A DNA stretch of 5,583 nucleotides from Gammaproteobacteria bacterium (GTDB taxonomy: Bacteria; Pseudomonadota; Gammaproteobacteria; HK1): assembly GCA_020444775.1 (NCBI GenBank), contig JAGRHX010000363.1, forward strand, positions 1 through 5,583. The letters run 5' to 3'. The translations under genes and the position numbers were made by a program. Each line of letters opens with the position of its first letter. The first letter of the stretch is position 1. Below are positions 1-5,583 of the stretch, one piece after another. The notes beneath the pieces were generated by a model. The model was not told where the DNA came from. It searched no databases and saw only the letters and a program-made list of their open reading frames with translations.

Positions 1-602
1 CGGTCATACACGTTCATGGTGAACAAGGGTGCGGCGAGCGCGAACAGGTTGACCATCACCGAACCGATGATCACGGCTGCATAGATGCGTCGGCTACGTG
101 CAAGCGTGCCCCAGAACCAATGCCCGGATCGGACTTCGAACAGGTTCGTCGAGGGTGTCTCGCTACGGTACTCTCGCTTGAGTAGGAACGCGAAGCCGAG
201 GTACTGACGCTCCAACACCTCCAGCGAGACCCAGGACTCCCCGTCACTCACATCGGGATGGATGACCTTTGCCCGATTGCCGGCCCGATCTATTGACTCC
301 AGGATGCAGGCATCACGTTCCTTCAGAACCAGGATGCACGGCAGCAGCAGCTCGGAGAAATCCTCCAGACGTCGTCGTACGAGTCGGCTGGCGAAACCGG
401 CGCGCTTCGCAACCCGCGAGAACAGGCTCTTTGGCTTGTCCACGCTGAAGAGCTCGGGGATCGTCGCGCCCGGGCTTACCGGCAGACCCGCGAGCAACGC
501 GTCGGCGGTGACCGGGCGGTGAAACAGGCGGGCGAACTCGACCAGGCACTTCAGCAGCGCGTCATCGTCCGCAGTCTCAGGCGGGGCGTTTTGATCCGAC
601 AT
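1..602 (-). CDS. lapB: LapB-like type I secretion ABC transporter, N-terminal part (truncated by window edge)
   Basis: Inner-membrane permease/ATPase of a type I secretion system, of the kind that exports LapA/RTX-type adhesins with ATP hydrolysis. About 200 residues are visible, read leftwards from an ATG at 600-602 and running off the left edge. Residues 12-145 resemble the degenerate C39-peptidase-like domain (CLD) of this family: there is a family-typical RPVTADALLAGLP stretch, no DCG-type catalytic Cys motif, and no His where the catalytic one would sit (LPCILVLKERDACIL, residues 87-101). It should therefore bind substrate rather than cut a leader. A HWFWGTL motif (161-167) is followed by a hydrophobic first membrane segment (about 172-195) ending in LFTMNVYD, a hallmark of LapB-like exporters. 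GAGAG lies 8 nt before the ATG. The remaining membrane segments and the Walker ATPase domain lie outside the window. The TolC-like gene is upstream on the same strand. Family assignment is confident; the symbol is by analogy to the Pseudomonas lap genes. Confidence 0.9.
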   Translation of the reverse strand, partial: MSDQNAPPETADDDALLKCLVEFARLFHRPVTADALLAGLPVSPGATIPELFSVDKPKSLFSRVAKRAGFASRLVRRRLEDFSELLLPCILVLKERDACILESIDRAGNRAKVIHPDVSDGESWVSLEVLERQYLGFAFLLKREYRSETPSTNLFEVRSGHWFWGTLARSRRIYAAVIIGSVMVNLFALAAPLFTMNVYD

Positions 603-944
603 CTCTGGGGCTCTCAATCGACCGAACCCGTCTGCGTTGCACAAATGCGAAGCGCTGGCAGCACGCCTTACTCTCCAGAATTGGCTCGTCGGCACTGCTC
701 GTCTAAATCGCCATCGGCTGGCGACTGACGCGCGAGGTCATACCCGCACCCCACGCGTCGATCAGCCGCGCGCTACCGCGGGTGATGGGCGTGCCGGCAG
801 GACGTCTCCTATACGCGACGAACAGTGCTTGCAGTGAATAGCGGCAGGAAGCGCCGAGGCTGAATGAGCCGAGTGCGACCGGGGTCACGATACTCGGGGA
901 CGGGCAGGAACTCAGCGACTGTTTCGGACCGGTTCTTGCAAGGA
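603..944 (-). other. Long gap between outer-membrane and ABC transporter genes
   Basis: These 342 bases separate two co-directional genes that would normally be tightly packed. No convincing gene was found on either strand; short open frames here have no recognisable motifs and no good ribosome binding site. It contains small inverted repeats: TCGCCA/TGGCGA at 708-724 and CCGAGT/ACTCGG at 869-897. On the minus strand a TATAGG hexamer (about 806-811) could be a weak -10, but no well-spaced -35 goes with it. The gap may carry a separate promoter or a processing/attenuation site for the transporter gene, or be decayed sequence. Confidence 0.5.
708..724 (-). other. Small GC-rich hairpin, possible weak terminator or attenuator
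   Basis: A perfect 6-bp inverted repeat, TCGCCA/TGGCGA with a 5-nt loop. On the minus strand it is followed by ATTTAG. The T tract is too short for a strong intrinsic terminator. It lies about 105 bases before the transporter start, so partial termination or mRNA processing between the two genes is conceivable. The call is structural only. Confidence 0.25.
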
Positions 945-3278
945 TTAACGAACGACCCGATCTGCCAGCGGCCGGAGTCTCAGCTCGGCGCGACGATTCA
1001 AGCGCCGCCCTTCCTCCGTGCGATTGCTGGCCACCGGTTGGCGCTCGCCCAGACCGAACGCGCGGATGCGCGGCGCTTGCACGCCGCGCTCGAGCAGCAT
1101 CTGCCTGATCTGCTCGGCCCGTTGCTCTGACAGGCGCTGGTTGTAGCCACGTGAGCCTACGTTGTCGGTGTAGGCCTGGATGTCGACGCCGAGCTCGGGC
1201 TGCTCGCCGAGGGTCCTGACAATCCGCTCCAGGCGCAGCGCCGACTGTTCGGTCAGCCCGCTCTGCTTGTAGGCGAACCGAACCGTGGCATCGGGCGCGG
1301 ACCGCGCACTGGGCTGGTCCTGCACCTCGATCGATACGGTGCCTGTCGCGAGTCTGCCGCGCCGGTCGCCGATGGTGTAGCTGAAGGCGTCCGCACCGCG
1401 GAAGCGGCGCCCGGGGGTATACACGAGTCCGGTGCCATCGGCATTCAGACGCAGATCGCCGTGCTGGGGCTGGGTATAGCTGCTCAGCTTGGGCCGATCC
1501 CTGGCGCTCGCCTGGTCGTTGGCGATCAATGCCGCGATATCCAGTACCAAAGGCTCATTGACTGGCGTGAAATAGCTGTCGTCTTCGGCGATGAAGGGAT
1601 ACTCGGCCGGATCGTAGCCAAGCTTGAGGTCACTGATCGAGAGACAGCCGCTGGTGCCGACCTGTGCCTGCCCGGGTGAGTTGACACAGTGGTCGCCGGC
1701 ATCATCAATGCGGTCGGCGTCCCGGTCGTTGGCGACGGACGTATCGTCCACGCCCGCGGCGCGCAGCGAGGCAATGCGTATGTCGTCATTCTCCAGGCTC
1801 ACCTGGATCCCCACCGCGGGCAGCAACTCACCCACGCCTTCATAGATGCGGTACCGGGCGGTCACCTGGCTGTAGTGAGCCTCGGCTTCGGCAATCAGCG
1901 CCCGGTTGAGCTCGCTCTCCGCGTCCAGCAGGTCGATGAGATCCCGGATCAGCAGCGTGAACTCCTCTCGATACAGCTTGACCGTCTCGAGCGACTCGTC
2001 CGAGTGTGCCTTGAGAAACGGTAGCTGGGTGCCCAGCGCCTCATCCGCGGCCCAGGCGAGCCGCAGATTGTCGATGACCTGGCGCCTGACCAGGTCCAGG
2101 AAGGCCTTGTTCTCCTGCACGACACTGGCTTTTTGCTGTTGTGCGGCCAGGTCCGCGCCGCCTCGGTACAGGTTGTAGCGAAACTGCAGCAACGCACTGC
2201 CCTCGTCGCTGCCGCCGAGCGGACCGCCGCTGTTGTGACCAACGCTCTGACGTAGCTGGAGGTCCAGCTCGGGCAGGTCACGGCTGAGGCTGCGGCGATA
2301 GTCGAATCGCGCGGCCTCGATATTGCTCAGGGCCGAGCCGATGCCGGGATGAGATGCCAGGGCTTTGTCGATGGCGACGCTCAGAGTGCCGCTGGGACGG
2401 GCCTGAGGCAGCTCAGGCTCGCTGAAGGCATCCGTTTCCAGATAGCGGCCGAGCAGTCGATGAGCCTCGGTCAACGCATCCTGGAGATTGTTCTGCTGGG
2501 CGATGAGGCTCGCCTTGGCGCGTGCCAGCCGGCCGCGGGTCTGGACCATGTCCGAACGCCGCAGCAGCTCCTTCTGGGCCAGCTCTTCGATCTGGCCGAG
2601 TATTCGCTCATGAGACTCGACGTTCTGCGCCGCCAGCTCCACCAGGCGGCGCTCGCGCAGGACCTTGACGTACGCACGTACCGCATCCAGCGCAATGTTG
2701 TCGGCGGTGTCGAACAGGCGATAGGCGGCGGAGCGGATTCGAGCACCAGCCTGCTCGATCTGATTGTCGACCTCGAAGCCGTCGAACAGCTGCTGGCGCA
2801 GCGTCACATCGGCCTGCGCGGTGTCATAGGCATCGCGGCGGTTGCCGGTGTTCTGCGCATCGCGTGTCACCAAGCCGGCGGACGCGCCAATGTCAATCTG
2901 CGGGCGCCACCCGGCGCGGGCGATGTCCTTGTCTCGGGCTGCCTGCCGATAGACGTGGATCCCCTCGCGTACCTGAGGATGCTCGGTGACCGATTCGTAG
3001 ACGAACCGCTCAAGCGGTAGCGCGTGAAGGCCCTGCGCCGCGCAGATCATGACCACGCCGAGCATCCAGACGATTGGCGGCCATGGCCGGCTTGGCGGGC
3101 CCCACCACGCCGCCCCGGCCGTCCATGCGCGATCCGCCCGTGCAGGGGATGCGTGACGCGGCCGGCTGGGGATTTCCGCAGGTTGCGCTGGAGAGCCGGA
3201 GGGGCAAGTCCTTGTATCTCGGGATCCGCCTTTCGGTCTGAGGGGCGCGATGTCAGTCTGGGGTATCAATGGGATCAC
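945..3278 (-). CDS. TolC-family outer membrane secretion protein fused to TSP3-like, cadherin-like and OmpA C-terminal domains
   Basis: Probable outer-membrane exit pore for the adhesin secretion system (LapE/AggA role). The open frame gives 777 residues; numbering follows it. Residues 88-490 form a TolC/OEP domain with two helical-hairpin repeats (about 88-285 and 296-485), including PLERFVYESVTEHPQV and LRQQLFDGFEVDNQI. Residues 515-546 are an Asp-rich thrombospondin type-3-like motif (NDRDADRIDDAGDHC) with Cys531 and Cys545. Residues 564-652 resemble a cadherin-like/Big-type beta domain (NADGTGLVYTPGRRFRGAD, then FSYTIGD). Residues 664-770 are an OmpA C-terminal domain with YTDNVGSRGYNQRLSEQRA and NRRAEL; Asp705 and Arg720 fit the diaminopimelate-binding pair, so it should bind peptidoglycan. 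A plain TolC is about 420-500 residues, so this is a true multidomain fusion without internal stop. The start is uncertain: GTG 3278 or TTG 3269 give a long Pro/Arg-rich leader, while ATG 3065 gives 706 residues and begins right at the signal peptide core (LGVVMICAAQGLHA). None has a clear ribosome binding site. Confidence 0.9.
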   Translation of the reverse strand: MIPLIPQTDIAPLRPKGGSRDTRTCPSGSPAQPAEIPSRPRHASPARADRAWTAGAAWWGPPSRPWPPIVWMLGVVMICAAQGLHALPLERFVYESVTEHPQVREGIHVYRQAARDKDIARAGWRPQIDIGASAGLVTRDAQNTGNRRDAYDTAQADVTLRQQLFDGFEVDNQIEQAGARIRSAAYRLFDTADNIALDAVRAYVKVLRERRLVELAAQNVESHERILGQIEELAQKELLRRSDMVQTRGRLARAKASLIAQQNNLQDALTEAHRLLGRYLETDAFSEPELPQARPSGTLSVAIDKALASHPGIGSALSNIEAARFDYRRSLSRDLPELDLQLRQSVGHNSGGPLGGSDEGSALLQFRYNLYRGGADLAAQQQKASVVQENKAFLDLVRRQVIDNLRLAWAADEALGTQLPFLKAHSDESLETVKLYREEFTLLIRDLIDLLDAESELNRALIAEAEAHYSQVTARYRIYEGVGELLPAVGIQVSLENDDIRIASLRAAGVDDTSVANDRDADRIDDAGDHCVNSPGQAQVGTSGCLSISDLKLGYDPAEYPFIAEDDSYFTPVNEPLVLDIAALIANDQASARDRPKLSSYTQPQHGDLRLNADGTGLVYTPGRRFRGADAFSYTIGDRRGRLATGTVSIEVQDQPSARSAPDATVRFAYKQSGLTEQSALRLERIVRTLGEQPELGVDIQAYTDNVGSRGYNQRLSEQRAEQIRQMLLERGVQAPRIRAFGLGERQPVASNRTEEGRRLNRRAELRLRPLADRVVR

Positions 3279-3651: not shown

Positions 3652-3728
3652 ACTCTTCGACCGGCGTGCGCGGGCATCCACGGACAAGCGTGGCACTCGG
3701 CCAGCCAGCAGCAGCTGAACGACGGTCC

Positions 3729-3735
3729 AGGAGAG
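3729..3735 (+). promoter_or_regulatory. lapG: Ribosome binding site deciding the lapG start
   Basis: AGGAGAG lies 5 nt before the GTG at 3741. It is the best Shine-Dalgarno match near any in-frame start of this gene and supports GTG 3741 over the upstream in-frame GTG codons at 3666 and 3690. Confidence 0.7.
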
Positions 3736-3740
3736 CCTGG

Positions 3741-4511
3741 GTGCAGTGGAACTTCAACAATCCGGCGCAAGCGCATACCGCGCCTCGAACGGCCTGCGTC
3801 CTCGCGACGCGCCGCGCTCGGCTGTTCATCACGCTGGCGGCTCCAGCCACCGGGACCATCCTGCTGCTCGTCATCGTGGTGCTCTGTGCGCCAGCCTCCG
3901 CGCCAGCGCAGCCGGCCAGCATGAAGCTGTTCGATGCCGCATTCCTGCAACGCTTCGAAGCCCGCTACGGGCAGGATGCCAGCCACCGGCTCGAGCGCTG
4001 GCAGGCCATGCTGGCCGAGGTCGCTGGTCGGGAGACGAGCGACAAGCTCGAGGCAGTCAACAGCTTCTTCAATCGGATCCCCTGGCTCAGCGATGAAGAG
4101 CACTGGGGCAAACGGGACTACTGGGCGACGCCGCTCGAGATGCTCGGCACCAACGGCGGCGACTGCGAGGACTACTCCATCGCCAAGTACATCAGCCTGC
4201 GCAAGCTCGGGTTTGCTGACGAGCAATTGAGAATCACCTATGTTCGCGCCCGAACCCTGCGCCAGACGCACATGGTGCTGGCGTACTACAAGTCACCGGA
4301 TGCCGAGCCGTTGATTCTCGATAATCTCGATCCGACGATTCGCCTCGCCGGCCAACGCGGCGACCTGCAACCGGTGTACAGCTTCAATGGCAGCGGCCTC
4401 TGGGCTGCCGTCAAACGCGGGCAGGGCGAACGCATCGGGGACCCGGGCCGACTTGCGATGTGGCGGGACGTCACCAGTCGAATGAACCTCACCGAGCTCG
4501 GGTTGCGCTAG
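3741..4511 (+). CDS. lapG: LapG-like periplasmic cysteine protease (bacterial transglutaminase-like, BTLCP family)
   Basis: Calcium-dependent periplasmic protease that cuts the N-terminal retention module of LapA-type adhesins and so releases cells from a surface. The chosen GTG start gives 256 residues, close to family length. An N-terminal segment with TRRAR followed by a long hydrophobic stretch (ITLAAPATGTILLLVIVVL) and APASAPAQPA looks like a cleavable signal peptide or membrane anchor. The mature part carries the family signature: HWGKRDYWATPLEMLGTNGG, then DCED with the catalytic Cys (residue 142 from this start), HMVLAYY with the catalytic His (177) and LILDNLD with the catalytic Asp (194). 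The acidic residues flanking the Cys in DCED correspond to the calcium site known in LapG proteins. lapD follows after 30 bases, so the two are almost certainly co-transcribed, matching their function as protease and inhibitor/receptor. In-frame GTGs upstream (3666, 3690) would add up to 25 residues and lack a good ribosome binding site. Confidence 0.95.
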   Translation: MQWNFNNPAQAHTAPRTACVLATRRARLFITLAAPATGTILLLVIVVLCAPASAPAQPASMKLFDAAFLQRFEARYGQDASHRLERWQAMLAEVAGRETSDKLEAVNSFFNRIPWLSDEEHWGKRDYWATPLEMLGTNGGDCEDYSIAKYISLRKLGFADEQLRITYVRARTLRQTHMVLAYYKSPDAEPLILDNLDPTIRLAGQRGDLQPVYSFNGSGLWAAVKRGQGERIGDPGRLAMWRDVTSRMNLTELGLR

Positions 4512-4541: not shown

Positions 4542-5583
4542 ATGACGCTTGCACGACAGCTCATCTCCTGGACGGCCCTGGTGCTGATCGTGGGCATGAC
4601 CGGATCGAGTGTCATCAATGTGCTGAGCACCCGGTCGTACGTCACGCAGCAGCTCGAAACGCACGCCCGGGATGCCGCCACCTCACTGGCCATGTCCGTG
4701 TCGCTACACCTGGCTGAGGGAGACGCGCTGTTCGCCCAGTCCATGGTCGATGCCATGTTCGACAGTGGCTACTACCGCAGCATCGAGGTCAGCGCCCCCG
4801 GGCACATACCGACCATCATGCGCAACGCCGATCAAAGCCTTGCCGGCGTGCCGAGATGGTTCATCGATGCGCTGCCCATCTCGTTTGGCACGGCCAGCGC
4901 GGAGCTGACCTCGGGTTGGCAGATCGTCGGTGTAGTGCGCGTGCGCAGCCACCCCGGGCACGCTTACCGTGCGCTGTGGCAGGCGGCCATGTACGAGCTG
5001 CAATGGACCGTCGCGCTGACCCTGGTCGGATTCCTGCTGCTGTGGCTGTTGCTGCGCTGGTTGTTGCGACCGCTGCGTGACATCGAGGCACAGGCGCTGG
5101 CGGTCGCCAACAGGGTCTTCCCGAAGCTCGAGCGCCGTCCACGCACACGCGAGCTTCGCCGGGTCGCCGATTCCATGGAGCTGATGACGCGGCGGGTGGA
5201 GCAGATGCTCGATGAGCAGGCCAGCCACGCCCAGAGACTCGAGACCGAGCTCTACCAGGACACGGTCAGTGGTCACAAGAACCGGCGCGGCGTCGAGCGC
5301 GCCCTGGAGGAGCTGGTCCGCTCCAGACGTGATACCAGCGCGGGCGCATTGATGATCATCTCCGGCGGTGAGCTGGATGCCATCAATCGCGGTGCCGGCT
5401 ACGAGGCCGGCGACGCCTACGTGCGGGCCCTCGCCGAAGGCGTGTGGAGCTGCGTTGCCGAGCGTGGCGCAACGCTCGGTCGGGTCGGCGGCGCGAGACT
5501 GGCGCTGATCCTGCCCGAGGCGACACCTGGCACGACCCTGCAGATGGCCGAAGCCATCGTCCAGCGACTGCGCGAGGAGGTCG
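4542..5583 (+). CDS. lapD: LapD-like c-di-GMP receptor, N-terminal part (truncated by window edge)
   Basis: Inner-membrane receptor that senses cytoplasmic c-di-GMP and, when bound, captures LapG in the periplasm, sparing the surface adhesin. 347 residues are visible. In order: a short cytoplasmic N-terminus and first membrane segment (about 8-28); a periplasmic LapD/MoxY N-terminal domain (about 30-150) with QLETHARDAATSLAMS and VDAMFDSGYYRSIEV; SGWQ with Trp126, probably equivalent to the Trp that inserts into LapG; a second membrane segment (about 154-176); a HAMP-like linker beginning RPLRDIEAQA (176-185) and a signalling helix; then a GGDEF-fold domain from about 238 (DTVSGHKNRRGVERAL). 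The signature position reads VGGARLALILPE (315-326), so the Asp-Glu pair of GGDEF is replaced and diguanylate cyclase activity is not expected. The c-di-GMP-binding degenerate EAL domain of this family should follow beyond the right edge. It is co-directional with lapG, 30 bases downstream. Confidence 0.95.
   Translation, partial: MTLARQLISWTALVLIVGMTGSSVINVLSTRSYVTQQLETHARDAATSLAMSVSLHLAEGDALFAQSMVDAMFDSGYYRSIEVSAPGHIPTIMRNADQSLAGVPRWFIDALPISFGTASAELTSGWQIVGVVRVRSHPGHAYRALWQAAMYELQWTVALTLVGFLLLWLLLRWLLRPLRDIEAQALAVANRVFPKLERRPRTRELRRVADSMELMTRRVEQMLDEQASHAQRLETELYQDTVSGHKNRRGVERALEELVRSRRDTSAGALMIISGGELDAINRGAGYEAGDAYVRALAEGVWSCVAERGATLGRVGGARLALILPEATPGTTLQMAEAIVQRLREEV

Follow-up and report, generated by a model that had tools for sequence, protein, structure and literature searches.

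In the Lap system the adhesin remains anchored in the TolC-like channel LapE up to its cleavage by LapG, a protease that LapD, together with c-di-GMP, restrains (passages cited from PMC6890996). The bpf cluster of S. oneidensis, as far as the cited passages of PMC4523816 go, also encodes an OmpA-like protein, SO4321, located between the secretion genes and bpfG. It is reported to take part in biofilm formation; according to the authors its role is not known, and they speculate that it may aid the localization of BpfA on the outer membrane. This is the Shewanella OmpA-family gene near aggA and bpfG that the original prediction had named, and it is documented. A giant adhesin lodged in a TolC pore has to withstand pulling, and the Lap passages cited here mention no attachment of the pore to the wall.

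The window, i.e., the whole stretch of DNA analyzed (5583 bases), contains a gene of this kind of channel with several additional domains, accompanied by genes of lap type. The features are the following:

945..3278, minus strand: TolC-TSP3-like-Big_9-OmpA fusion gene (LapE-type outer membrane channel plus putative C-terminal anchor module)
3021..3065, minus strand: probable signal peptide region, residues 72-86, start codon uncertain (direct reading of the sequence and comparison with relatives P0002 and P0009)
1794..3023, minus strand: TolC channel, two OEP repeats, residues 86-495
1614..1733, minus strand: TSP3-like motif rich in Asp and carrying two conserved Cys, residues 516-555 (column conservation)
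1329..1592, minus strand: Big_9 / cadherin-like domain, residues 563-650 (PF17963 2.1e-14, PF17892 1.9e-10)
993..1277, minus strand: OmpA peptidoglycan-binding-type domain, residues 668-762 (PF00691, OmpA-like fold)
3..695, minus strand: lapB-type ABC exporter gene, 5' part (LssB subfamily, C39-like N-terminal domain), truncated by the window edge
3666..4511, plus strand: lapG-type periplasmic cysteine protease (Peptidase_C93; PF06035 5.4e-16, above cut-off)
4542..5582, plus strand: lapD-type c-di-GMP receptor, N-terminal part (LapD_MoxY_N, HAMP, GGDEF), truncated by the window edge

The real start codon of the fusion gene is probably near 3065. Profile searches found two OEP repeats in the TolC part and a match to TIGR01844 above its cut-off, and in the AlphaFold model (a monomer in which the linker is poorly placed) the channel part shows a TolC fold and the C-terminal domain an OmpA-like fold. 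Thus, the prediction that a complete OEP/TolC, an Asp-rich motif, a cadherin-like domain (Big_9) and OmpA share one open reading frame was confirmed. The domain searches proposed with it recovered OEP, Big_9/cadherin-like and OmpA, and failed only for the Asp-rich motif: the Pfam TSP_3 model gave no match to the fusion protein at E <= 1, and for this reason we call the motif only "TSP3-like", though its Asp/Cys pattern is conserved. Actually, its D, C, N and G columns are invariant across 40 relatives, and a model built from the segment matched it. The OmpA domain has an Asp at residue 705 (bases 1164-1166) and an Arg at residue 720 (bases 1119-1121), which we take, after the structure of A. 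baumannii OmpA, to be the pair that binds diaminopimelate. No Rfam matches were found in the window.

The fusion protein had 281 protein matches at E <= 1e-10. Among the matches listed, all 120 relatives carried OEP, Big_9 and OmpA by precomputed Pfam, and TolC, TSP3-like, Big_9 and OmpA by our local models, with a second OmpA or Big_9-OmpA unit in eight of them. A stand-alone Big_9-OmpA protein that could be the source of the second half was looked for among the 120 matches listed (of 187), none of which contained Big_9. We found no description of a TolC-OmpA fusion in the open-licence PubMed Central literature (titles and abstract starts, among the matches listed), and the word 'OmpA' does not appear in the available text of PMC13082787, PMC6890996 and PMC13090378 or in the first 300,000 characters of PMC8277102.

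The window is part of a Lap adhesin locus. The lapB-type gene lies downstream of the fusion on the same strand (TIGR03375 3e-43, partial and under its cut-off; PF03412 0.0075, under cut-off), while lapG and lapD are divergent, on the opposite strand. The lapG-type protein also matched NF045674 (8e-64, under its 320-bit cut-off) and contains, by eye, the Cys, His and Asp of the LapG triad, in the motifs GDCEDY, THMVL and ILDNL. In the lapD-type part PF16448 was above cut-off (6e-39) and NF045673 matched across positions 1-346 of 647 (5e-69, under cut-off, the gene being cut short). Twelve related loci were available in named assemblies, and lapG and lapD directly followed the fusion in all seven that are intact on that side (L001-L006, L008), the remaining five stopping at a contig end on the lapG side; LapG was present in 10 of the 11 genomes carrying these loci. 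The gene order in the relatives that could be read far enough was fusion, lapG, lapD, lapB, lapC (HlyD), LuxR-type regulator and adhesin, the regulator and adhesin end being domain-checked in L001 and L004. The HlyD-type adaptor was found in L001, L004-L006 and L008, the window itself stopping inside lapB. Adhesin frames in which a TAAG or PAAG site, taken by us to be the LapG-type cleavage motif, lies near residues 106-128 were detected in L001, L004/L186 and L137, and in L143 an adhesin with such a site adjoins a TolC-TSP3-OmpA fusion. Both complete adhesins, those of L186 (1741 aa, two RTX-type repeats) and L143, have RTX repeats near the C-terminus. All of this adhesin evidence comes from related loci, as the window has no adhesin gene.

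Several peculiarities of the neighbourhoods were also noted. The regulator between lapC and the adhesin is a LuxR-type (GerE) protein of ~208 aa (L001:18381-19004, L004:18403-19026). A surface-type protein of 3196 aa, combining FG-GAP repeats with a Peptidase_C13 domain, is encoded at L009:146-9733, immediately upstream of a window-family TolC gene that is cut by the contig end. In L147 (1419-2781 and 4921-6866) lapC and lapD each appear in two overlapping pieces in different frames, by decay or sequencing error, and at L269:1765 (plus strand, 1209 aa) a LapB-type exporter and a LapC-type adaptor share one open frame beside TolC, LapG and LapD.

The architecture of the window's fusion is one of several in which the two domains are joined, namely TolC-TSP3-Big_9-OmpA, TolC-TSP3-OmpA, TolC-OmpA, TolC-OmpA-SPOR and the reversed OmpA-TolC. 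We have examined a class sample of 369 genomes, drawn with G004 as the centre from the class to which it belongs, 47 of them with a close TolC (E <= 1e-38), and the neighbourhoods of 60 LapG places plus 29 further ones, 28 of these being TolC places away from LapG. Fusions were found in 11 genomes (G004 included): five of the window type, three TolC-OmpA, two TolC-TSP3-OmpA and one reversed OmpA-TolC. The reversed type is shared by another genome, G379, whose copy is 98% identical and truncated by the contig end. When a TolC-OmpA protein was the query, the best 120 of 1755 proteins comprised 13 TolC-OmpA, 17 OmpA-TolC and 90 plain TolC. In L156:4627-6462 and L185 the reversed fusion reads, in one chain, as a signal-like N-terminus, then OmpA, then TolC. 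A phylum-wide sample (398 genomes, 99 with a match), covered by 28 new best-match loci and 40 places chosen mainly for long open frames (G710 counts in both), added six fusion-bearing genomes. Among their fusions, L266:4670-6973 is TolC-OmpA-SPOR and has therefore two different types of wall-binding domain on one channel; another, L272, has a partial OmpA part only and sits on a long branch. In L260:2 (plus strand, 4796 aa) TolC was found at the end of an open frame opposite a 4272-aa frame with Big_9 matches; the 4796-aa frame probably stays open by chance, within an adhesin gene rich in G+C.

The joining of TolC and OmpA seems to have recurred: on a 56-row TolC tree no fewer than five changes (gains or losses) are required to explain the fused state. 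A single clade for all fusions was rejected (p-AU 2e-64), as were one clade of Big_9 and TSP3 fusions (p-AU 2e-52) and one of Big_9 and direct TolC-OmpA fusions (p-AU 0.015), and a shared origin of the class sample's two TSP3 fusions was weakly rejected (p-AU 0.043), all these p-values being indicative because the groups were defined with the tree already in view. For the direct and reversed types, which differ in domain order, the TolC tree did not reject a common origin (p-AU 0.142). The recount, the AU tests and the contingency table given below exclude L007 and L009, in which the TolC frame continues past the contig end.

We consider it fairly likely that the window codes for a LapE/AggA-type pore of a Lap/Bpf system with a cell-wall anchor in the same chain, which would pass the pull on the adhesin to the wall. 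The domains of channel, linker and OmpA type are directly observed, and so are their conservation and the lap setting; from these we infer peptidoglycan binding and a mechanical role. The C-terminus of TolC lies in the periplasm, close to the equatorial ring. Three fusion protomers would form the TolC trimer with their C-termini leaving the channel on the periplasmic side, and the TSP3-like and Big_9 segments might act as a spacer bringing three OmpA domains per pore to the peptidoglycan. The equatorial region of TolC has itself been proposed to interact with peptidoglycan (PMC13082787, in the part cited). To judge from its sequence, the OmpA domain of the fusion probably grips the cell wall, binding peptidoglycan of the diaminopimelate type by means of its conserved Asp and Arg. 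The giant adhesin would be lodged in the pore by its N-terminal plug until cleavage by LapG, and the anchor would both transmit the pulling force from adhesin to wall and fix the position of the pore, so that a pore loaded with adhesin would be riveted to the wall. Where OmpA is a separate protein encoded beside tolC, as in other bacteria, it probably has a related role. The repeated joining of TolC and OmpA suggests that tying the adhesin to the wall matters.

Separate OmpA genes beside tolC are indeed frequent. Of the 28 new best-match loci of the phylum sample (best-scoring matches, not a random draw), 19 had an OmpA gene of 200-232 aa directly following tolC on the same strand, with a spacing from 84 bases of overlap to a gap of 4 bases, and a TSP3-like motif was detected in 12 of the 19 proteins. 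In the class sample separate OmpA genes were located 17 bases upstream of tolC in L158 and L161 and directly before lapG in L104, and in plasmid records of Vibrio, Salinivibrio and Photobacterium the OmpA and TolC genes are adjacent by their coordinates. These tolC-adjacent genes fit SO4321 of S. oneidensis. The original prediction held that the window gene fuses two partners that are separate elsewhere, and this adjacency, together with fusions of several kinds in both orders, is in favor of it in general terms. The part that is not supported is the derivation of this particular OmpA domain from the common neighbor. All 19 separate OmpA proteins downstream of tolC (L228-L231, L233-L235, L238-L241, L244-L247, L251-L254) have Ser at the position of the peptidoglycan-binding Asp and keep the Arg. 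The same Ser is present in three TolC-TSP3-OmpA fusions (L135, L263, L274), with which the neighbors cluster in the OmpA tree (support 95/85), and the OmpA domain of the window, with its Asp, groups apart from them in this tree of 113 columns with weak deeper forks. Therefore, the anchor of the window looks like an independent recruitment and not like the common neighbor welded on, as far as these sequences can tell.

The same data bear on the first alternative, that the C-terminal module serves periplasmic Lap partners (LapG, LapD or the adhesin plug) as a docking platform, with peptidoglycan binding incidental or lost. The replacement of the binding Asp in every one of these neighbors and in three fusions indicates that wall binding is not the whole story for all members. 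Besides, lapG was found within the short stretch read in 11 of the 19 loci, where the OmpA gene stands between tolC and lapG, and the S. oneidensis authors speculate, in the passage of PMC4523816 on SO4321, about a part in BpfD and BpfG translocation or in BpfA localization. But every copy examined of the window, direct and reversed types has both Asp and Arg: 12/12 window-type copies in loci and 127/127 in the proteins listed, 13/13 TolC-OmpA and 17/17 OmpA-TolC among the proteins listed. The 11 other fused copies in loci include seven with both residues, three with Ser and one with Ala (the partial L272), and the separate OmpA proteins of L104, L158 and L161 retain the pair. The extra SPOR domain of L266 also points to the wall, and we regard docking as an unlikely main function of the window's module.

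A second alternative is a neutral fusion, in which a widely shuffled anchoring domain was acquired with no special link to adhesin retention. OmpA domains are indeed found in a wide range of proteins (many OmpA-bearing families), and because of such shuffling a fusion by itself is modest evidence for the interaction of two particular proteins. In the class sample 9 of 22 TolC rows with lapG in the stretch read were fused versus 1 of 28 without it (Fisher p 0.0027; 50 rows, centre excluded, with stretch lengths differing between the groups), but once relatedness was considered the link was not significant, the tree-aware comparison having only five independent pairs, too few for significance, and showing nothing. 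With the centre counted, 13 of 23 LapE-type pores of the class sample with lapG nearby were unfused. Of the six further fusions of the phylum sample only that of G637 had lapG in the stretch read, and four had it elsewhere in the genome; no LapG was found in the genome of fusion-bearing G648, and in G255 lapG was on a different contig from the reversed fusion. Against neutrality stand the several origins in both domain orders, the OmpA gene abutting tolC in so many loci, the biofilm role reported for SO4321 (PMC4523816, passage cited above) and the behavior of the other OEP proteins in the same 11 genomes. These genomes hold 75 open frames with OEP matches (two matches below cut-off left out), 15 of them of at least 540 aa, and OmpA was found on only 11, all Lap-type; it was absent from the other four long frames, from six shorter ones and from the 19 non-fused of 30 loci, the rest of the other 64 frames being judged by length alone. 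A neutral fusion is hence improbable in our opinion. Finally, that the gene is an assembly or sequencing chimera of two adjacent genes has a negligible chance of being right: the window appears as a single short metagenome contig, but the same parts were joined in all 120 relatives listed, from many contigs, and L001-L006 come from separate assemblies, which rules out the assembly error by which two separate genes might have been joined.

Returning to the wall-anchored pore, a broader view would be that a pore-bound OmpA module is an overlooked part of Lap secretion, welded to the channel in several independent events, in either order and with additional wall-binding domains. In it the Asp type would rivet the pore to the wall and the Ser type would have traded canonical diaminopimelate binding for another ligand or partner. 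We give this view an even chance. The claim that the OmpA-type protein works directly with the pore gains from the recurrent fusion and the adjacency, but the neighbors are of a different OmpA type, and since the window's domain does not come from them a direct interaction in the unfused systems is only suggested. The repeated joining of a wall domain and the OmpA gene abutting tolC in many loci point to a part of the system that has been overlooked; they suggest what SO4321 might do, and the question becomes open to tests in laboratory strains.

The C-terminal domains of OmpA, OprF and Pal hang on a small barrel or a lipid, whereas the OmpA domain of the window sits on a TolC channel. Like LapE of P. 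fluorescens and AggA of S. oneidensis, the window protein has a TIGR01844 TolC channel in a setting of lapB, lapG and lapD, and as in the Lap/Bpf systems its related loci carry an adhesin with an N-terminal LapG-type site. LapE and AggA are described only as TolC-like channels in the cited parts of PMC4523816 and PMC6890996, and the window protein differs from them in its TSP3-like, Big_9 and OmpA segments. SO4321 differs from the fusion in being a separate chain; it was compared by description only, the Ser at the binding Asp being a feature of the tolC neighbors found here. The E. coli TolC also has an accessory envelope part and in this resembles the window protein with its putative anchor; the part in question, the lipoprotein YbjP, binds TolC between the equatorial domain and the membrane boundary (PMC13082787, sections cited). 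Unlike the OmpA module, YbjP is a separate lipoprotein, and the data given in those sections suggest no avid interaction with peptidoglycan. Accessory envelope partners of TolC have therefore a precedent, although by way of a different protein.
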